Shown: positions 38,717-54,419 of the stretch, one piece after another
Layout of the letters: each line of letters opens with the position of its first letter
How positions within the stretch are numbered: position 1 is the first letter of the stretch
From: Rhodococcus triatomae BKS 15-14
GTDB lineage: Bacteria; Actinomycetota; Actinomycetes; Mycobacteriales; Mycobacteriaceae
NCBI GenBank assembly: GCA_000341795.1
Contig: AODO01000007.1
Location: 1 to 64,000 of the forward strand
Length of the DNA: 64,000 nt
Direction of reading: 5' to 3'
The notes under the pieces: generated by a model
The model's database searches: none
Told to the model about the DNA's origin: nothing
What the model saw: the letters and a program-made list of their open reading frames with translations, nothing else
Position numbers and translations under genes: made by a program

Positions 38717-39187
38717 ATGACGATCACCGACACCCGCGCCAAGCAGGACCTGATCCGCACCGCAGCCCGCAGCCGCGTCGACGACCGCGAACTCAACCGC
38801 GCCATCTACCGCGCATCCCAGGACGCCCAACTCTCGCAGCGCCAGATAAGCGTCATCATCGGCAAGCCGTCACAGGCCACTATCCAACGGATCCTGGCCC
38901 GCTTCGCCGAAGACCCCTCGCTACTCGACGAGACACCCGCCGAGGTCATCGACAAGCGCACCGCCGGCCTGATCGACGACGACACCATGATGGACAGGCT
39001 CCTGAACTGGAAGTACACGTTCGGTCACGTGCCGCACGTCGATGATGTGTCCACCGACGCCTACAGTTCCGGCGACTGGGACGACATCGAACAGGCCTAC
39101 TACCTCGACCGGCTCTCCAACGACGAGTTCGCTCGACTCGTCGAGCGACACAAGACGAGCCTCCAGCGAGCGGCCCGCACTCAGTGA
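38717..39187 (+). CDS. HTH antitoxin-like protein of a zeta-toxin module
   Basis: This 156-aa protein has a helix-turn-helix in its first half (RAIYRASQDAQLSQRQISVIIGKPSQATIQRILARF). An acidic C-terminal half follows (DDDTMMDRLLNWKYTFGHVPHVDD, SSGDWDDIEQAYYLDRLSNDEFARLVERH). It does not look like the classical small epsilon antitoxin. The GTGA overlap with the toxin gene indicates tight coupling. It likely neutralises the toxin with its acidic half and represses the operon through the palindrome at 38684-38700. Confidence 0.82.
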   Translation: MTITDTRAKQDLIRTAARSRVDDRELNRAIYRASQDAQLSQRQISVIIGKPSQATIQRILARFAEDPSLLDETPAEVIDKRTAGLIDDDTMMDRLLNWKYTFGHVPHVDDVSTDAYSSGDWDDIEQAYYLDRLSNDEFARLVERHKTSLQRAARTQ

Positions 39188-40041
39188 CCGACGACCTCCA
39201 CTCGCGGGGCCTGATCGCCGACCAACTCGCCGCCCTGTCCACCCCGGGGCAGCCCCTGCACACCGACGCCGACCACAACACCAGCCTCCTCTACGCCGGA
39301 GACATCAGCCGCTTCGCGTTCCGCAAACGCGTCATCTCCGCCTACCTCGAACGCGAGAACCCGGCCAGAGGAGGGGTGACCGCGATCGTCTCGGCGGGCA
39401 GCCCCGGATCAGGTAAAACCACAGCACTCCGTGACCACGTCCCCGACCTGAACGACTACCGCATCCTCGACCCGGACATCATCAAAGACGACCTGATCGA
39501 GCAAGCCCTCCACGACGGTCTCTACGACGACCTCCTCGCCCGCATCCTCGACGACGGACACCCTCTCGCGCCACGTGAGCTGGCCTCGCTCGTCCACCGC
39601 GAATCGACCCAGCTGATCGACCAGATCCGCCGCATCTGCATCTCGCGCCGCGAGAACATAGTGGTCGAGGGAACGCTCACCTGGAAGGGCCTGGCACCGA
39701 AGCTCGTCGCCGAGTTCACCGAAGGCGAGTACCAACACGTAGAGGTCATGGCCATCGAAGCCGACCGCGCCACCGCCCACGAACGGGCCCTCTCACGCTG
39801 GTGGTCAGGCCGCCAAGAGTGGATCGCCGGCATAGACCGGCTCGGCGGCCGATTCACACCGCCAGCAGCGATCGACATCTGCTACACCGACGCCGCTCAG
39901 TCGCTGTGCACTCAACACGCTGTCGAACTCGAAGAACTGGCGTCGGTGACGATCAGCCACACCCGTGTAACTGTGCTGCGACGCGACACCAGTGGCCGGC
40001 TCATCACGGTCCTGGAACGTAGGCACCCCCGAAACCGGTGA
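39184..40041 (+). CDS. Zeta-toxin family kinase
   Basis: This 285-aa protein has the zeta-toxin P-loop SAGSPGSGKTTALRDHV (residues 70-86), then DYRILDPDIIKDDLIEQAL (the conserved Asp-x-Asp/substrate region) and the helical continuation ISRRENIVVEGTLTWKG. Zeta toxins phosphorylate UDP-N-acetylglucosamine and block wall synthesis. GTG start overlapping the antitoxin stop. The module probably stabilises the plasmid by post-segregational killing. Confidence 0.85.
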   Translation: MTDDLHSRGLIADQLAALSTPGQPLHTDADHNTSLLYAGDISRFAFRKRVISAYLERENPARGGVTAIVSAGSPGSGKTTALRDHVPDLNDYRILDPDIIKDDLIEQALHDGLYDDLLARILDDGHPLAPRELASLVHRESTQLIDQIRRICISRRENIVVEGTLTWKGLAPKLVAEFTEGEYQHVEVMAIEADRATAHERALSRWWSGRQEWIAGIDRLGGRFTPPAAIDICYTDAAQSLCTQHAVELEELASVTISHTRVTVLRRDTSGRLITVLERRHPRNR

Positions 40042-45408: not shown

Positions 45409-46668
45409 GTGAACGGTACGTCTCAGGGTACCGCATACCCTGACAACGCAACAACATCTCGAGACAACTCCTCCGGCGAGTTGCCTCTTTCGCCTATACG
45501 CACGCGCAGTGATGTCGGTCCACAATTCGACGAAATCAGTTTCGCTGCCGCTTCGAGAAATGCCGTTGCGAATATATCCAGAGTCGACGCAATTAATCGC
45601 GACAGCGAGCAAAAAGGGCGGACTTGGTCGCTTCCGATCAATCCAACTGAGCAATCAAAAACTCCCATTTGGTCAGGAAGAGCACAATGGCAACACCAGG
45701 TTCGACATCTTCTCAATTCCGATTCGGGTATCAAGGCATGCAAGGAACACAGCGTTGATACCGAACGTGTCTACGCTGTCGCAGTGACAATGGCGGGGTT
45801 TGCGGATCACCACACCGGCCGACGCGTGACCGCCTCGCGTGAACGCCTCGCCGACGGGGCTGGAGTCTCTGTCACCGTACTCAAGCGCGCCCGACGCGTG
45901 TTGGTCGCTCTCGGAATGGCCCGCGAGATGGCCCGAGGACGACTTCTCCGCACCATCGAACAGTGGGCAGCCGAAGCTCACCACGGCCGACGCCAGGCGA
46001 AGGCAACGAGCGTATGGGCACTCCTCTCTCCCCGGACGGTTGTCGTCCAGCGCCACCAGGCACCATCCTCTGCCACCTCCAGGAACGAGCCTCAAACCGT
46101 GGGTTCTCCACAATCACGCCGTCATGGCCCCCAATCTCTTGGTACTAGTGTTAGTTCTTGTTCTTCCGTAAGGAAGAACTCCCCTACGCGTGCGCGCACG
46201 CGACGGCAGAGATCCCTCGAACCCACACACAACCCCCGATCAATCCAACTTCAGATCACCGCTGCCGAGCTAGTTCGCCACGCCCCAGCTTTGAACCCCA
46301 AAGGGCACATCGGGTCCGTCAGTGACGCACTGAGCGCCCATTCCGTCGATCCCGAACGGTGGTCGGGACAAGACATCGCTCGAACCCTCAGCGAGGACAC
46401 CCGAACCCGAGGCTGGCTATGGCCAACGGTCGGATCAATCAGAAACCCGATCGCCTTCTTGCGCTGGCGCCTAGCCCAGATCGATTGGACACTCCCCTCC
46501 CCCACCGAGTCAGCACTAGCAGCCAGAAGTCTCCGTCTCGCCGAACGCGAAGCCGCTCGGAGTGATGCACTTAGGCGCGACGCCAAGGTTGCTTCGCGCA
46601 ATGTCCGCGAAGCCGCAATGTCCAGTATCCGTGCGTCGCTTCTGAAGCGTCCCGTCGACAGCGATTAG
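45409..46668 (+). CDS. Putative plasmid replication initiator (winged-helix DNA-binding protein)
   Basis: This 419-aa protein starts at GTG 45409 with a GAAGGGA ribosome site. A DNA-binding region lies at about residues 125-185: YAVAVTMAGFADHHTGRRVTASRERLADGAGVSVTVLKRARRVLVALGMAREMARGR has the helix-turn-helix and wing seen in plasmid Rep proteins. The middle is Ser/Arg-rich and probably unstructured. The C-terminal part (DIARTLSEDTRTRGWLWPTVGSIRNPIAFLRWRL) resembles segments of actinobacterial plasmid replication-type proteins. The assignment rests mainly on this pattern and on position: the palindrome array starts 4 bases after its stop, and parAB follow. It could instead be a regulator of that array. 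Confidence 0.6.
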   Translation: MNGTSQGTAYPDNATTSRDNSSGELPLSPIRTRSDVGPQFDEISFAAASRNAVANISRVDAINRDSEQKGRTWSLPINPTEQSKTPIWSGRAQWQHQVRHLLNSDSGIKACKEHSVDTERVYAVAVTMAGFADHHTGRRVTASRERLADGAGVSVTVLKRARRVLVALGMAREMARGRLLRTIEQWAAEAHHGRRQAKATSVWALLSPRTVVVQRHQAPSSATSRNEPQTVGSPQSRRHGPQSLGTSVSSCSSVRKNSPTRARTRRQRSLEPTHNPRSIQLQITAAELVRHAPALNPKGHIGSVSDALSAHSVDPERWSGQDIARTLSEDTRTRGWLWPTVGSIRNPIAFLRWRLAQIDWTLPSPTESALAARSLRLAEREAARSDALRRDAKVASRNVREAAMSSIRASLLKRPVDSD

Positions 46669-46671
46669 TTG

Positions 46672-48609
46672 GTTTACCGCGGTAATCAGCTACATCGATC
46701 GATGTCGAAGTTTGTCACCTCGTCTGCTAGGTGGTTGGCTCCGGCCCAGTCGTGCCTCCGGGGCTCCGCTACGACTCAGTGTTTACCGCGGTAAAAGCGA
46801 CGCAAGCCGTTCAGGCTCCTATCCCAACGGACTCCCCGCGACCCACAGCTCACAAGACCGGACCGTCCGCGACACTGAGGGGGGCGAGCCGCTCTCAGTG
46901 AGAGTGCATAGATGGCAGTCGATCTGATCGCGGAACGCCTTTCGTACATTAGCTGAAGCAAGCCGAATCGTGGTTTACCGCGGTAAACCACTCCCCTGAC
47001 TGGTACGCCAAGGCCGTACGTCGCGACACGCCTCAGTCGAACCTGGACAGCGTGACGAAGAAGTGTCAGTATTCTGCATCCCATGATCGCCACCCGCCGC
47101 CTGAATGCATTATCCGCGCAGTGACGCGCAGTCAGTCTTTACCGCGGTAAACACTGACTGCGCGTCGATATCCCCCAGTTTGCACGTGTTCGGACCTGCC
47201 GGACGATGCTGGAGTGCATTTGACTCGCGCTCGCAATTGGCGCGCAGTGACGAGCGTAAACGTGGGCCGCAGAACTCCTGCAACGGACGAACTGACCGCC
47301 GCGGCGCTCCAGGTGCTCCTGACTGTGATTTCGAAGGACTATCGCCCGCGCAGGAAGAATCGAGGGAACGGGGCGCCGGCCCGCCAAACTCCTGTTCCAG
47401 GAGTTCCTCTCTGCCCGATCGACCAGCCGTCATGGGCAACGATGTTTACCGCGGTAAACGTGATTCCGTGGACTGATACACACGGCTCCATGTGACTCAG
47501 CGTCCCGTAGTCGAACGCTATGTACGTGCCTCGTGATGCAGTAATGACGGAAACAGCTAGCGGTATACGCCGAAGCGATCCGGGCGGATGTGGCTATGCC
47601 TTCGGTGTGCGGTTTACCGCGGTAAACCGCGGCGGTCGCGCTCGGCGCGCGCCAACTTCGTGTCGGAACCAATCCGGCGTTTACCGCGGTAAACATTCGT
47701 GGGACTTCTCGCGGAACTCCACCTCTCCAGCCCATACCTTGGAATCGCTGGATGCTCCCGTGGGTAGCGACACTGCATTGAGAGCCACCAATGCATCCGA
47801 CTATCCAGCGTAGGAAGTGAGCGCCGGAGTGGTCTGACGCCCGCACTGAACGAAGACGTTTACCGCGGTAAACGTGCGGTCGACTGGGGCGCAACTGCAT
47901 GATCGTTCGTCTAGGCGTCAAGCCTGTTGTGTTCGTTCCGCGGCGATCACAGGTGAAGTGAACAACTCAGGTCGAAGTAGCCTCCGCTGGCCAGGTGGGC
48001 CGGGAGTAACCCAAATGCCGCTGTGAATCCAGACATCTGCAGTGGCCTGTGGGCGGGTCAAATGAACCCACGTTGACCCAGCGGACCGCCCGAGCTGACG
48101 GAGATGCGTTTTACCGCGGTAAACCTCTGGGGAGTAGAGCTGATGTGGCGCAGCTGTTTGGGCCGACCTGAGTTCCATCTAGCGTTGTAGAAGTTGATGG
48201 CTGTCGTCACGTTTCGAACGCGATCGGACCATCCTCTAGGGGATTTCATTATTGGAGCGTGCAACTTGGTGCGACATGCTGAGTTGCTCGATTCATCCAA
48301 TCTGGTATGTGTTTACCGCGGTAAACGTAGGGCACAGGGGAGAGAAGGAGACCCAAGTACAGTTGGGCATTCCGCAAGTGGGCGGGGTTCCTGTGAGGGA
48401 GTTGGCCTGAGGCACTTCGACGCTCCGGAAGGCATCGGCTGCGCGCACGTGGGCGATGCTACGCCCAGCTTGTTGCGGACGCACTCGTTGTCAGGGTGAA
48501 CACTGGGGAGCGGATTGACTGCGGCATTGAGGTCTGTCGACTCCCTGTGGTGTGAGTACGTCTCGGCCTGAGACGAGCACTCAGTCGCTGGCTGTTTACT
48601 GCGGTAAAG
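46672..48609. repeat. Array of eleven GTTTACCGCGGTAAAC palindromes (putative origin/centromere)
   Basis: Copies start at 46672, 46781, 46973, 47137, 47444, 47612, 47679, 47858, 48109, 48311 and 48594. Five inner copies are perfect (46973, 47444, 47612, 47679, 47858), as is 48311. Outer or flank-variant copies have one or two changes (46672, 46781, 47137, 48109, 48594). Start-to-start distances are 67 to 307 bases and irregular. The tract has no gene; frames through it only repeat the translated palindrome. Its position between a Rep-like gene and parAB suggests iterons or parS sites. A separate palindrome ACATCGATCGATGT lies at 46692-46705. Confidence 0.9.
47123..47166. repeat. 44-bp extended palindrome around the fourth array copy
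   Basis: Arms of 14 bp (47123-47136 and 47153-47166, GACGCGCAGTCAGT and its complement) flank the central 16-bp palindrome. Only the outermost base pair of the central element is unmatched. No other array copy has such long arms, so this copy may be a special entry or nucleation site. Confidence 0.9.
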
Positions 48610-49564: not shown

Positions 49565-49714
49565 ATGACGCATATCGTCGCCACCAAGCCCTACACGAAC
49601 ACAGGGCTCAAACCCATTACGATGATGAACGCGCTGATCACCACCGAGATCGCATCGTGGTGGTGGGAGTCCGAAGTAGCCCCAGCAAGGGCGAAGTATA
49701 CGGAGGTTAACTGA
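49565..49714 (+). CDS. 49-aa small protein translationally coupled to parA
   Basis: ATG 49565 opens a frame reading MTHIVATKPYTNTGLKP, then TMMNALITTEIASWWWESEV, and stops at 49712-49714 so that its TGA overlaps the parA ATG (TGATG). Codon use is GC-biased at third positions. No family recognised. The three Trp in a row and the fixed overlap with parA suggest a genuine, perhaps regulatory, component of the partition operon. The ribosome site before it is weak. Confidence 0.55.
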   Translation: MTHIVATKPYTNTGLKPITMMNALITTEIASWWWESEVAPARAKYTEVN

Positions 49715-50421
49715 TGGCTGTGCACGTCATGCTCAACCAAAAAGGTGGAGTCGGAAAATCCACCCTGACAATGAATCTCGCGGCCGTGAAAGCGGACGTA
49801 CTCACCCGCGACGACGACGACGTCCAATCGCCCGTCGCAGCCATCTCAGTCGACCCCCAGGGCTCTGCGGTCTGGTGGGCATCCCGTGTAGCGGAACTCC
49901 CGTTTCTCATCGACCAGGTCCACGACAACCTCGAGGTCCTCCGCAACCTCAACAAACTGCCGGGGATCAAGCACGTCTACGTCGACACCCCCGGCTGGAT
50001 CGATCTGTCCGGCAACGACGACGGAACCGACGCTCTCGGGGCAGGAAGCTCCGGCGACGCACTACGCGCGGTCCTCGACGTCGCGGACCTCGTCATCGTC
50101 CCGATCGAACCTGAACCGCTCTGCTTCGACCCGACAGCCCGCACCATCAAGCAGGTCCTCGAACCGCTCAACAAAAAGTTCATCGTTGTCGTCAATAACT
50201 GGGATCCCCGCGACGGAAAGACGGACCTCGACCAGACCCGAGAGTTCGTACAGGCCAACGGATGGCCCCTCGCACGCACCGTCATCCGCCATTACAAGGT
50301 GCACACCCGCGCCGCAGCAGAAGGCCGCGTCGTCACCGAGTACGAAGCCAACCGCGTCTCTCTCCAGGCGCGGGAGGACTTCTACAAGCTCAGCCTCGAG
50401 CTCGCGGACGGTGATCGCTGA
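49714..50421 (+). CDS. parA: ParA-family partition ATPase (small, type Ib-like)
   Basis: This 235-aa protein has a deviant Walker A motif N-Q-K-G-G-V-G-K-S-T (signature Lys10, Lys15), the A' motif ISVDPQGS and Walker B VYVDTPGW. It lacks an N-terminal HTH, which is typical of small type Ib ParA proteins. It forms ATP-dependent gradients on the nucleoid that move ParB-bound plasmid copies. It follows the 49-aa gene with a TGATG overlap, has a GGAGG at 49702-49706, and overlaps parB the same way. Confidence 0.95.
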   Translation: MAVHVMLNQKGGVGKSTLTMNLAAVKADVLTRDDDDVQSPVAAISVDPQGSAVWWASRVAELPFLIDQVHDNLEVLRNLNKLPGIKHVYVDTPGWIDLSGNDDGTDALGAGSSGDALRAVLDVADLVIVPIEPEPLCFDPTARTIKQVLEPLNKKFIVVVNNWDPRDGKTDLDQTREFVQANGWPLARTVIRHYKVHTRAAAEGRVVTEYEANRVSLQAREDFYKLSLELADGDR

Positions 50422-51344
50422 TGGCCCCCAAGGGCGGACGGGCGAACTTCGCGTCACTGGTCGGATCGGTGGGAGACAACTCACCGGTCGACCGCAAGAA
50501 AACGCCAGAGAAGCCGAAGCCTGTCGAAGCCGAGCCCGTGGATGGGCAGTTCCTCGCAGACGTCCCCCTCGAAGAACTGGTCGCGAATCCACGCAATCCG
50601 CGTGACGAGGTCGGTGACCTGTCAGACCTGTCCACGATCGTCGACCGCCAGCTCCAGCCTGGAACCGCCGTCAGCCGCGCCGCCTGGCTGAACCTGTGGC
50701 CGACCGACGAGGAGATCCTCGGCGACGCAAAGTACGTCGTCGTCAACGGCAATCGCCGTCTCGCTGCAGCCGTCAAGTACAACCGACCCGGCCTCGACGT
50801 CGTCATCCGCGACAGCATCGCCGTCAGTAGGGGAGAGGTCCTCTGGGCGGCCACCAGCGAGAACATCGACCGCCGCGACTTCGACGTCATCGAAGAAGCC
50901 AAGGCAGTCGAACTGATGGTCACCGAGTTCGGCGGCGCCGCCGCCGCCGCAACAAAGCTGGGTAGATCGAACGGCTGGGTATCCCAACGACGCGCCCTGC
51001 TCAAGCTCGCCCCGGAGCTGCAGGTCAAACTGCGCGCGGGCGATCTCGCGATCCGCGTCGCACGGTCGCTGGCCAGGGTTCCACTGGAAGAGCAGGTCGC
51101 GGCGTGGCAGGCGTCCCAAGAAGGCGCCGACACCGACCCGCAATCACCCGCAGCCGAGCAGGAGCCAGAGGTTCAGGAGCCGAAGGAGCCCAAGGAGCCG
51201 GCTACCGAGGTTGAACCGGCCGACAAAGTCGTCCAGGCGCTGCGCAAACTCAGCGTCGACCCCGCCGTGCTCGCGGAGGCCGTGCGCAAGCACTTCACCG
51301 CGGCCCAGCAGCGGTCCCTGATCGACGAGCTCGGTCTCAACTAG
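50421..51344 (+). CDS. parB: ParB-family centromere-binding protein
   Basis: This 307-aa protein has the ParB N-terminal nucleotide-binding region (FLADVPLEELVANPRNPR, and GNRRLAAAVKYN in the place of the CTP-binding GERRxRA box). A central HTH (AAAATKLGRSNGWVSQRRALLKLAPELQ) follows, then an acidic Pro/Glu linker and a C-terminal dimerisation helix (KLSVDPAVLAEAVRKHFTAAQQ). It overlaps parA by one base. Its binding site should be a palindrome near the operon; the GTTTACCGCGGTAAAC array 1-3 kb upstream is the obvious candidate. Confidence 0.93.
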   Translation: MAPKGGRANFASLVGSVGDNSPVDRKKTPEKPKPVEAEPVDGQFLADVPLEELVANPRNPRDEVGDLSDLSTIVDRQLQPGTAVSRAAWLNLWPTDEEILGDAKYVVVNGNRRLAAAVKYNRPGLDVVIRDSIAVSRGEVLWAATSENIDRRDFDVIEEAKAVELMVTEFGGAAAAATKLGRSNGWVSQRRALLKLAPELQVKLRAGDLAIRVARSLARVPLEEQVAAWQASQEGADTDPQSPAAEQEPEVQEPKEPKEPATEVEPADKVVQALRKLSVDPAVLAEAVRKHFTAAQQRSLIDELGLN

Positions 51345-51567: not shown

Positions 51568-51720
51568 ATGACTATCCTTCACACTTTCCAAACGCCGACC
51601 TCCACTCCGGATCCTGGCGTTGCTGGTAGTGCGAGCATCTCGATCTCGGACGTACCCCGCCAGCTCAACCCCAGCCATACCTGGCACGAGGCATCATGGA
51701 AAGCCTTGGCAGCGCAATGA
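51568..51720 (+). CDS. 50-aa small protein translationally coupled to tap
   Basis: ATG 51568 has GAAGGGA 8 bases upstream. The frame reads MTILHTFQTPTSTPDPG, later ISISDVPRQLNPSHTWH, EASWKALAAQ, and its TGA overlaps the tap start as ATGA (51717-51720). The overlap fixes the tap start at 51717 and not 51696. No family recognised. Confidence 0.6.
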   Translation: MTILHTFQTPTSTPDPGVAGSASISISDVPRQLNPSHTWHEASWKALAAQ

Positions 51721-53621
51721 ACACGCCCGGGGATCAGTTCGCACTCTTCGACGTCGAAACTGAACCGCACTCCAACCAGATCAAGCCCGATGGTGTGGGC
51801 AGTGCTACGACTGTCGACGGCCCCAGCCGCCTAGGGTCCGCCACCTTGCCAGACGATGCCACCTCGGCGCCGCCAGCAGCCGACCCAGCCACTCGTGAGC
51901 CTGGTGACCAACAAGCATCAGAAGGTGCTGGGGCAGTGGGGGAGGAGACCAGCACTGCCGACGCATCCGACCAGCCGACAGCCCCCCACACTGAGCACAA
52001 GCGATGGGAAGCCCTCCCCACCGGATCCGCAGCAGATGGCCACGCGATCATCGTCACTGCCGAGGCCACTTATACTCCGTCGGGCGCGAAGCTCACCGGG
52101 CCCGTCGATTCGATCGAGAAACTGGACAAGCTGATCCAGTGGGCGGCCCTGCAACCACTGGGTGTGCCTGCACAAGTGTGGCTCGTCGGCACCGGCGCAT
52201 GTGAACTCTTGGGATGGACCATCAACCCGGGCAGCGAGTATGACGTCGACGACCTCGAGAAACTGCGCATCCGAGCGGCCGAATCCCTCGGTCTGGTCAT
52301 CACCGCCAGCCTGCCGCCCTTGATCACCACTGGATGGGAACTACGCGGCGACCCCGGCCATGTCGTGCACCTGTCGCGGGCGATCGGCAAGGCAACCCAG
52401 ATGGTCGACATCATCCTGGAGCCGTATGTCTGGACCTACTGGAACAAGGACTTCGGCTGGCACGGACGCATCGGTGACATGGGCATCCTCGGCAACCCCA
52501 CCGCCGGGACCTACCTCCCCGACGACGACCTCCCCGCCGCCCGCGAACTCGGCCGCCGACTCGCCTGGACCGCCCAGCACCTCGGCGTCCTACCCGGACC
52601 CACACCGGCCCGCACCGGCGCCGCCGTCCTGGACAAGATTCGCCGCGAACGCACCCGCACCGGTAAGGGCATCGTCGTTACCACCGCGGGCGCGGTCCCG
52701 CCGATCCACGGCGCACCCGATGGCGACTTCGAACCCGCCGCCGGCTGGATCCGCGACCACCTCGACTCCGACGACCTCGACGACGTCAGCCAGATCGTCA
52801 CCATCGACCAGCGGGCCGCATACCTCGCCTCGGCAGGCATGCTCGAATTCGGCTACGGCAAGCCGCGCCAACTCCTGGGCGTCGATGCCGCGGACGCTGC
52901 GTCGGCGGACAAGCCTGCGTTCGGGATCTGGCACGTCACACTCCCCGCTGGCGGCCAGTACGCGCTGCCGGAGAAGTTGCCCCTGCCGCATCCGGAGATG
53001 CTCACCGATCAGCCCGTGACCACCTGGGTCACCACTGTCAGTCTCGAGGGATTGTGTGCCCCGATTGTCGACGGCGGCATGGGCCTCGACATCGACGACC
53101 TCGCCGTCACCGAAGCCTGGGTCTACCCGGAACGCGGCCGGGCCTTGGACAAGTGGGCCAAGGTCTTGCGTGAGGCCCGCGCCGTAGCCGCCGAAACCGG
53201 CGATGCGGCGATGAAACGGTTCATCGGGGCCTGCTACAAGGGCTACGTCGGCAGAATGACCCGGCCGGAAATGTGGACTGCCACCCGCATGCAACATCAC
53301 CACCAGCCGATTTGGCGCGCCGCGATCATGGCGCACTGCCGGTGGCGCGGCCGCCGCGTCGCGATGCGCATCGCCCGTGACACCGGGAGGTGGCCGATCC
53401 GCACCATGACCGACTCATGGGTGTACCTCCTCGGCGACAGGCAAACAATCGCCGACGAGAGCGAAGCCCTCGGCAAGATGGTCGTCGAGAAGCACACCGC
53501 CCTGACCGACGAGACGCTGCTGGCGTTCGCCGCCGCCGAATCCGCCCGCGATGTGCGGCTCGCGATCGCTGCCGCGTACGGCGTCGGCGCGGAATCCGAC
53601 GATGACGAGACGGGGGAGTAG
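51717..53621 (+). CDS. tap: Tap-like telomere-associated protein
   Basis: This 634-aa protein has an acidic, unstructured first 110 residues. The rest follows the layout I know from Streptomyces Tap, which binds telomere 3' overhangs and recruits terminal protein Tpg. It has TIDQRAAYLASAGMLEFGYG (Asp364), KRFIGACYKGYVGRM (Lys500), RAAIMAHCRWRGRRVAMRIA and MTDSWVYLL (Asp566). These three sites resemble polymerase palm motifs A, B and C (D..xxY, K...Y.G, TDS), which fits reports that Tap has primase activity. Streptomyces Tap has an N-terminal XRE-type HTH; here I see none. The tpg-like gene starts at the next base after its stop. Confidence 0.75.
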   Translation: MNTPGDQFALFDVETEPHSNQIKPDGVGSATTVDGPSRLGSATLPDDATSAPPAADPATREPGDQQASEGAGAVGEETSTADASDQPTAPHTEHKRWEALPTGSAADGHAIIVTAEATYTPSGAKLTGPVDSIEKLDKLIQWAALQPLGVPAQVWLVGTGACELLGWTINPGSEYDVDDLEKLRIRAAESLGLVITASLPPLITTGWELRGDPGHVVHLSRAIGKATQMVDIILEPYVWTYWNKDFGWHGRIGDMGILGNPTAGTYLPDDDLPAARELGRRLAWTAQHLGVLPGPTPARTGAAVLDKIRRERTRTGKGIVVTTAGAVPPIHGAPDGDFEPAAGWIRDHLDSDDLDDVSQIVTIDQRAAYLASAGMLEFGYGKPRQLLGVDAADAASADKPAFGIWHVTLPAGGQYALPEKLPLPHPEMLTDQPVTTWVTTVSLEGLCAPIVDGGMGLDIDDLAVTEAWVYPERGRALDKWAKVLREARAVAAETGDAAMKRFIGACYKGYVGRMTRPEMWTATRMQHHHQPIWRAAIMAHCRWRGRRVAMRIARDTGRWPIRTMTDSWVYLLGDRQTIADESEALGKMVVEKHTALTDETLLAFAAAESARDVRLAIAAAYGVGAESDDDETGE

Positions 53622-54419
53622 ATGGCGCTGCACTTGCCCACACCGCGGGCAAAGAACGACTTGCCGGTCAAAGCCACCGGACTCGACGGGATGAAGGTCA
53701 AGGTCGCAACGGCCGCCGTCGACGGTATCGCCAAGTCACAGGAAACCAGCCGCGGTCTCGCCGGCCTGACGTCAAAGGTGTCGGTCAAGCAGATGCGTGG
53801 CGAAATCGGAAAGGACGGGATCCGGCAGGCCGCAATCGACGCCGGCAAGACACCGCCATCCGATCGGACCCTGCGCCGCTGGGCGCAGCAGGACAGAATT
53901 CCCAACGCTGAGATCGCGGAACTCGCGCAGCGCCGCGCCGCCATCGAACGCCTTGGCGGCGTGAACGCTGTCGCAAGGAAGATCGGCCGGACCCCGTCGT
54001 CGGTGCGCCGCTACCAATCGGGCGACACCAACGAGCTGCGCAACGACGCCAAGTCCAAACTCAAGGCGGCGAAGACAACAGACACCATGCAGAAGGCCGG
54101 TGTCCTCAGACCTGACGGGACAACGAAGATCGCCACGATTCAGGTCACTGGCCGCGTGCACGTCCGAAACGGCGACGAGGCCGGATACGATTACCGCACC
54201 CGCACACTGGACTTCGGAAACTCGGACACCCCGTTCAGTGCAGAGGAATCGCAGGCCCTGGCCGCGGCACTCGCCGCCGATGACCAGGCGCGCGTCGTGG
54301 CAATCCTCGAACGCCACGCCACGATGGACTACCCCGAGAACAAGGGATTCGACCGCTACGGCGATCAGTTCGGGTTCCACTTCGATGCCATCGACAAACT
54401 CGATGTCACCTGGCGCTGA
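53622..54419 (+). CDS. tpg: Tpg-like telomere terminal protein
   Basis: This 265-aa protein has a central HTH (GGVNAVARKIGRTPSSVRRYQSGD) comparable to the TKAVARLLGVSxRTVERY region of Tpg. A beta-rich segment follows (IQVTGRVHVRNGDEAGYDYR), then a helical part, then an ending F-H-F-D-A-I-D-K-L-D-V that parallels the FTDIDYxDFD ending of Tpg. Tpg is covalently attached to the 5' ends of linear actinobacterial replicons and primes end patching. It is longer than Streptomyces Tpg (about 185 aa) because of an extra N-terminal domain that itself looks HTH-like (SDRTLRRWAQQDRIPNAEI). Adjacency to tap without a gap strengthens the call. Confidence 0.7.
   Translation: MALHLPTPRAKNDLPVKATGLDGMKVKVATAAVDGIAKSQETSRGLAGLTSKVSVKQMRGEIGKDGIRQAAIDAGKTPPSDRTLRRWAQQDRIPNAEIAELAQRRAAIERLGGVNAVARKIGRTPSSVRRYQSGDTNELRNDAKSKLKAAKTTDTMQKAGVLRPDGTTKIATIQVTGRVHVRNGDEAGYDYRTRTLDFGNSDTPFSAEESQALAAALAADDQARVVAILERHATMDYPENKGFDRYGDQFGFHFDAIDKLDVTWR

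Follow-up and report, generated by a model that had tools for sequence, protein, structure and literature searches.

A palindrome array beside parAB in Rhodococcus triatomae is a probable multi-site parS centromere

A stretch of 64,000 nucleotides from Rhodococcus triatomae BKS 15-14 (contig AODO01000007.1, positions 1 to 64,000; hereafter the window) carries eleven copies of a 16-bp palindrome, GTTTACCGCGGTAAAC, which, judging from sequence comparison, very probably form a multi-site parS centromere belonging to the ParABS partition system of the plasmid itself, which is of type I with an HTH-ParB. This reading draws on the sequence itself, on co-occurrence, on covariation and on the persistence of the sites, and the palindromes are most likely ParB docking sites because, across relatives, a change in the DNA-reading part of ParB goes with a change in the palindrome. 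On the + strand a Rep-like gene, the array, parA, parB, a weakly Tap-like gene and a very weakly Tpg-like gene follow one another:

45409 to 46668, + strand: Rep-like DNA-binding protein, 419 aa; some homologues are annotated Rep or replication protein; match to phrog_35571, DNA binding protein, 3.1e-13.
46672 to 48609, strand not assigned: putative parS array of 11 palindromes GTTTACCGCGGTAAAC, 16 bp each, starting at 46672, 46781, 46973, 47137, 47444, 47612, 47679, 47858, 48109, 48311 and 48594.
49594 to 49709, + strand: parA leader, whose DNA is conserved (79% across 116 bp in the comparison with L201).
49714 to 50421, + strand: parA, ParA-family ATPase, 235 aa; CbiA 7.3e-09; KGGVGKST P-loop in the translation.
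50421 to 51344, + strand: parB, HTH-ParB, 307 aa; HTH_ParB 1.8e-08; predicted recognition helix starts at residue 184; GxRR, ENxxR and EEA motifs.
51696 to 53621, + strand: weakly Tap-like (telomere-associated) protein, 641 aa; NF047542 3.9e-07, scoring 29 bits where the cut-off is 600.
53622 to 54419, + strand: very weakly Tpg-like HTH protein, 265 aa; NF047541 E 0.012, scoring 15.6 bits where the cut-off is 90.

The Rep-like stop codon lies 3 bases before the first palindrome, and this arrangement agrees with the first-pass annotation, which had placed the array between a Rep-like gene and parAB. The name Rep comes from the annotations of some homologues; the predicted structure of the protein is uninformative, since its mean pLDDT is 59 and its best PDB match has an E value of 0.71. 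The parA leader is, by comparison with relatives, apparently non-coding and conserved as DNA: the 50-aa ORF within it is interrupted or shifted in the relatives translated, and its coding is not conserved. The complete gene order, from Rep-like through Tpg-like, recurs in L201, L202, L203, L204 and L210, and plasmid pDND3A of R. gordoniae, which is recorded as linear, has 11 sites upstream of parA. Elsewhere in the window, a Zeta-toxin-like kinase gene at 39184-40041 (Pfam Zeta_toxin 1.7e-16) may encode a plasmid-stability toxin. The same genome holds a second Rep-like homologue, 38% identical, at positions 23164-24261 of contig C26 (L304), a contig with no palindrome of the array's kind.

The window was scanned for the palindrome with up to three mismatches tolerated, and all 11 matches fall within 46672-48609: six are exact, four have one mismatch (46672, 46781, 47137 and 48109) and one has two (48594). 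The eleven-copy array first reported is therefore real, and its coordinates run exactly from the first copy to the last. The shuffle expectation for the window is 0.12 copies, and none of 100 shuffles reached 11. On the remainder of the array contig (C7, 119,181 bases) there is no additional copy, and the rest of the 5.82-Mb genome, searched at up to two mismatches, gives a single lone match with two mismatches, on contig C10. The copies are irregularly spaced, at 67-307 bp, as had been claimed, and in 109 spacings from nine arrays no helical phasing was detected (Rayleigh p = 0.995 at 10.5 bp, 0.45 at 10 and 0.91 at 11). On average, extended-dyad pairing in the flanks of the sites exceeds background only over the first few bases. 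The site at 47137 is the centre of a 44-bp near-perfect inverted repeat without a loop (47123-47166), whose 22-nt arms are 95% complementary. Over the whole of the 119-kb contig, the GC-skew shows no clear switch at the array.

An exact 16-mer scan of genome contigs gave at least 116 stretches (L005-L120). Among those listed, a ParB match occurs in 35 and a ParA match in 7 others; the remaining 74 have neither within the stretch, and many of these are single copies from unrelated phyla, so a lone copy of GTTTACCGCGGTAAAC is no sign of a centromere. Where listed stretches carry at least three exact copies, 17 of 18 hold ParA or ParB; the exception, L043, has seven copies and a Rep, with neither ParA nor ParB matched in a stretch whose first base is already that of a site. 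A search for the 16-mer elsewhere had been proposed in the first-pass annotation, and it finds the site together with ParB in Rhodococcus, Nocardia, Mycobacterium, Williamsia and Streptomyces, among others, with ParB identities of 37-78% (31% in L263) among the listed stretches. Two of these loci, L054 (Streptomyces jumonjinensis) and L101, carry 11 and 13 exact sites together with parA and parB and have no Rep match within 8 kb. Viral contigs contributed 13 stretches with the 16-mer, with a ParB match in L263 and L272.

To avoid the bias of a motif search, a second sampling was made by protein. The ParB query matched in 39 of 301 genomes of the family, from which 40 loci were taken, and a palindrome of the window's family is present at 37 of them. 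Palindromes with a CCGCGG core number 175 across the 40 loci, against 4.0 in block shuffles (two-base blocks, 10 rounds); the three loci that lack one are L218, with an apparently complete ParB, L236, on a 3.7-kb contig, and L240, a ParB fragment. Chance or a dispersed repeat is ruled out by this excess, by the expectation of 0.12 copies and by the single match elsewhere in the genome. The site adjoining parAB is kept at loci with no Rep match, among them L219, L220, L222, L224, L226 and L227. A further 27 ParB loci from plasmid records, phage ZL12 and a phylum sample, which include more distant ParBs, hold a CCGCGG palindrome in 10 cases. In Streptomyces phage ZL12 (L301), a circular phage-plasmid, exact copies of the 16-mer lie both upstream of parA and within parB, and a circular Mycolicibacterium plasmid (L285) carries a symmetric variant of the palindrome. 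One close relative is recorded as linear. The assignment to actinobacterial linear plasmids in the first-pass annotation is too narrow; judged from these sequences, the candidate centromere type is not confined to linear plasmids or to Rhodococcus.

Diverged ParBs with altered recognition helices adjoin symmetrically altered palindromes. The variant CTTTACCGCGGTAAAG is found at L214, L216, L217, L232 and L233, and also at L275, L287 and L289; GTTCACCGCGGTGAAC at L228 and L230; GTTTTCCGCGGAAAAC at L234, L237 and L284; CTTTCCCGCGGGAAAG at L231; TATTACCGCGGTAATA at L239; TTTTTCCGCGGAAAAA at L235; and TTTGTCCGCGGACAAA at L281. Eight symmetric forms, including that of the window, each occur at least twice beside a ParB. 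For covariation counts, rows with more than 15 gaps and repeated recognition regions were dropped, which left 88 distinct regions; here, as in the scan and tree comparisons below, only palindromes with a CCGCGG or CGGCCG core were used. We set aside 18 of the 88, which had no such palindrome or only one of four singleton CGGCCG-core palindromes. Glycine occupies residue 185 in 54 of the 57 distinct regions paired with half-site TTTACC (the exceptions being L055, L093 and L263) and in none of the 13 paired with variant half-sites. Within the TTTACC class, residue 184 is K, N, P, Q or S with an outer G (45/45) and E or A with an outer C (12/12), these residue classes, E/A against the others, having been picked after the data were seen.

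A scan of ParB residues 40-239, which omitted near-invariant and gappy columns and did not use the residue-184 classes, gave its highest z for the outer base at residue 184 (15.7, against 6.2 for the runner-up) and for the inner half-site at residue 185 (12.8, against 6.1), with z values that ignore relatedness. The set L005-L120 was ascertained by the 16-mer, and the scan was repeated without it: among 45 ParBs not ascertained by motif, residue 184 scored z 12.2 (next 6.2) and residue 185 z 11.6 (next 7.3). When the ParB tree was built from sequence outside the recognition helix, contrasting pairs on it obeyed the E/A outer-base rule in 8 of 10 cases and the glycine inner-half-site rule in 8 of 9. 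In the predicted model of the window ParB the recognition helix starts at residue 184, and a phmmer alignment sets this residue opposite the R of the GKSR stretch in Caulobacter ParB, R173, which is described in the accessible text as hydrogen-bonding guanine 1 of parS (PMC7383237). Residue 184 would then read the outer base, and residue 185 would help to read the inner half-site.

The sites persist while the spacers turn over, as follows from spacers that hardly align between loci at which the sites are kept. The window shares 82-86% parA DNA identity with eight close relatives; of the 3,045 bp that separate rep from parA, once the palindromes with their 6-base margins on either side and the leader of parA are set aside, 10 to 53 bases align with any one of them. 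ORFs in this interval are short and overlapping, and the description of the DNA around the array as gene-free holds. Some of the relatives align with each other at 78-88% over 390-550 bp next to parA and over scattered spacer stretches of at most 165 bp.

Array size differs within the closest clade, in which Rep and ParB are mostly found together. Loci with Rep beside the array hold 11-22 sites within one mismatch (L201, L202, L203, L204, L206, L210 and L211; the window has 10), and the parAB loci with no Rep match in 16 kb (L205, L207 and L209) hold one site each. L205 and L209 are second parAB copies that share their contigs with L204 and L210; their ParBs are 98% and 96% identical to those of the main loci, and they are recent duplications that appear to have one specificity in common with the main array. 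L207 has parAB and one site on a 5.0-Mb contig, with an internal stop in parB, and is perhaps a chromosomal remnant.

The difference between these seven Rep-adjacent loci and the three without Rep would also be expected if the array served both as centromere and in replication control, with bound ParB modulating Rep or the origin through handcuffing or copy control and both functions selecting array size. In line with this, the text available for mycobacteriophage repA plasmids reports copy numbers that differ with and without parABS (PMC7157519). We nevertheless regard such a double role as unlikely: the single-site loci may be secondary copies that rely on the main array, or remnants, and large arrays also occur without a window-type Rep, in L054 and L101.

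Considerably less probable is a role of the sites as operators for the repression of parAB or rep by ParB or another regulator. In several relatives one or two sites do stand a short way upstream of parA, but the last site of the window lies about 1.1 kb upstream of that gene, and in some relatives sites are found downstream of or inside parB. For SCP1, parS sites downstream of or inside parB have also been reported, in the portion of that paper available (PMC13245405).

Rep homologues were used as a control for the association with parAB. The Rep query matched in 42 of 301 genomes, at 80 places, and among the best-scoring 20 of those outside array loci none has a site within two mismatches of GTTTACCGCGGTAAAC; these controls are 38-50% identical to the window's Rep, against 52-56% at array-bearing loci, and at least 3,987 bases downstream of Rep were available in 19 of the 20, with 543 bases in L241. 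Two of the control loci (L245 and L249) hold a distant ParB match, 36-37% identical over part of the protein, and CCGCGG palindromes of a different sequence are present at three of the controls. An iteron reading, in which the neighbouring Rep-like protein would bind the palindromes to form a replication origin, is thus very hard to sustain: the array does begin directly past the Rep stop codon, large arrays do lie between Rep and parA in the close Rhodococcus-type clade, and the seven-copy stretch L043, which starts at its first site, matches Rep but neither ParA nor ParB within its length, but against these stand the Rep loci without sites within two mismatches, the arrays of L054 and L101 without a Rep match in 8 kb, copies that are palindromic rather than helically phased direct repeats, and a palindrome that varies with ParB residues, and on these grounds the iteron reading was rejected. 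In the genomes compared, the palindrome follows parAB, not Rep. Of the new centromere or iteron class proposed in the first-pass annotation, the centromere half is strongly supported by the co-occurrence with parAB, by the matched changes of palindrome and residues 184 and 185 and by the sites kept amid poorly aligning spacers, and the iteron half is not supported.

Of the features expected of a type I ParABS centromere system, those that sequence and predicted structure can show are found in the window: a ParA-family ATPase gene adjoins parB, ParB combines an HTH with a predicted N-terminal ParB-CTPase fold, and the inverted repeats near parAB follow parB in evolution. The structure of ParB was predicted with good confidence (mean pLDDT 81), and the PDB folds that match the model best are ParB (7bm8 and 7bnk) and Noc (7ng0), with KorB of RK2 (8qa9) at rank 19. 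A Pfam search of the protein gave no N-terminal ParB domain match, and its first CTP motif is divergent by eye; the SCP1 ParBs likewise have a divergent CTP pocket and are nevertheless CTPases, according to the text at hand (PMC13245405). Many listed plasmid records (e.g. NZ_CP101468.1) annotate close ParB homologues as "peptide transporter", a label that hides the partition system.

For the centromere reading, we infer a mechanism in which a single ParB dimer would dock on each 16-bp palindrome by its helix-turn-helix. If it behaves like chromosomal ParB and the SCP1 ParBs, the bound protein would form a closed CTP clamp, leave the sites by sliding and spread over the adjacent DNA; partition would follow from movement of the ParB-DNA complex by the ParA ATPase. 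Many sites in gene-free DNA would provide many loading points. Loading of a sliding clamp at the sites is plausible on the predicted fold; irregular spacing, which had been taken to favour it, does not by itself show it.

The system resembles chromosomal ParB-parS and Noc-NBS (PMC7383237, as far as its text was available) in its HTH-ParB fold, in the outer GTTT..AAAC and in the R173-aligned residue that tracks the outer base. It differs in the core, which is ACCGCGGT where the chromosomal site has CACGTG, and in the span from outer G to outer C, which is 16 bp against 14 in canonical parS, GTTTCACGTGAAAC, with the GTTT..AAAC blocks two bases further apart; the half-site of the window is therefore one base longer. 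Within one mismatch, GTTTCACGTGAAAC occurs at 14 places in the genome; contig C68 has 11 of these and the array contig has none, which bears out the earlier remark that the element is distinct from canonical parS.

Among actinobacterial plasmids, ParABS1 and ParABS2 of SCP1 from Streptomyces coelicolor also belong to type I with an HTH-ParB. The ParB of each binds inverted repeats located around its parAB, hydrolyses CTP and slides; there parS1 is 13 bp and parS2 19 bp, with three sites each, compared with 16 bp and 11 sites in the window (PMC13245405, available portion). At loci of Streptomyces-type plasmid ParBs without a CCGCGG palindrome we found 13-bp repeats TTAACG-N-CGTTAA (7/7; L276, L280, L291, L292, L294, L296 and L297) and, near a second group of such ParBs, ATTACG-N-CGTAAT (4/4; L277, L278, L295 and L299), the groups having been drawn by eye from recognition-helix letters with no shuffle control, and some copies lying more than 1 kb from parA. 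The Nocardiopsis ParB of L290 also has a 13-bp inverted repeat of one or the other type nearby. These repeats are possibly, by their position, the parS sites of those ParBs, and their size agrees with that of the parS1 of SCP1 found by ChIP (PMC13245405, in the same portion).

The parABS of actinobacteriophages RedRock and Miko is comparable in that clusters of parS flank parAB, some beside repA, whereas the parS loci of RedRock consist of eight direct repeats of an 8-bp motif and those of the window of palindromes (PMC7157519, from the sections available). In ParATS of SCP2, another actinobacterial plasmid partition system, an 18-bp parS is likewise made of half-sites and the loading protein diffuses along DNA, but ParT is described, in the available part of the source, as being without an apparent CTPase domain (PMC12260392), in contrast to the predicted ParB-CTPase fold of the window ParB. 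In literature text whose coverage excludes most subscription papers and all figures, the exact 16-mer GTTTACCGCGGTAAAC was not found; its 14-bp core turned up only in unrelated fungal work, and hits for shorter or variant strings were, by title and abstract start, not in plasmid work.

Plasmid records matching the window ParB at E 1e-5 number 655, of which 50 match over at least 80% of its length, and the palindrome family would help the annotation of parS in such records. The eight forms are a natural test set for the evolution of ParB-parS specificity, and sites of the array could serve in vectors and imaging for Rhodococcus and Streptomyces. A broader proposal, to which we give an even chance, is that residues 184 and 185, adjacent at the start of the recognition helix, largely set which palindrome ParB reads in a single HTH-ParB lineage of actinobacterial plasmids and a phage-plasmid, with parS half-sites one base longer than the chromosomal type. 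If this is true, the centromere could be read from the ParB sequence alone, as could, perhaps, partition incompatibility; a plasmid lineage would then change its centromere through matched alterations of ParB and its site.
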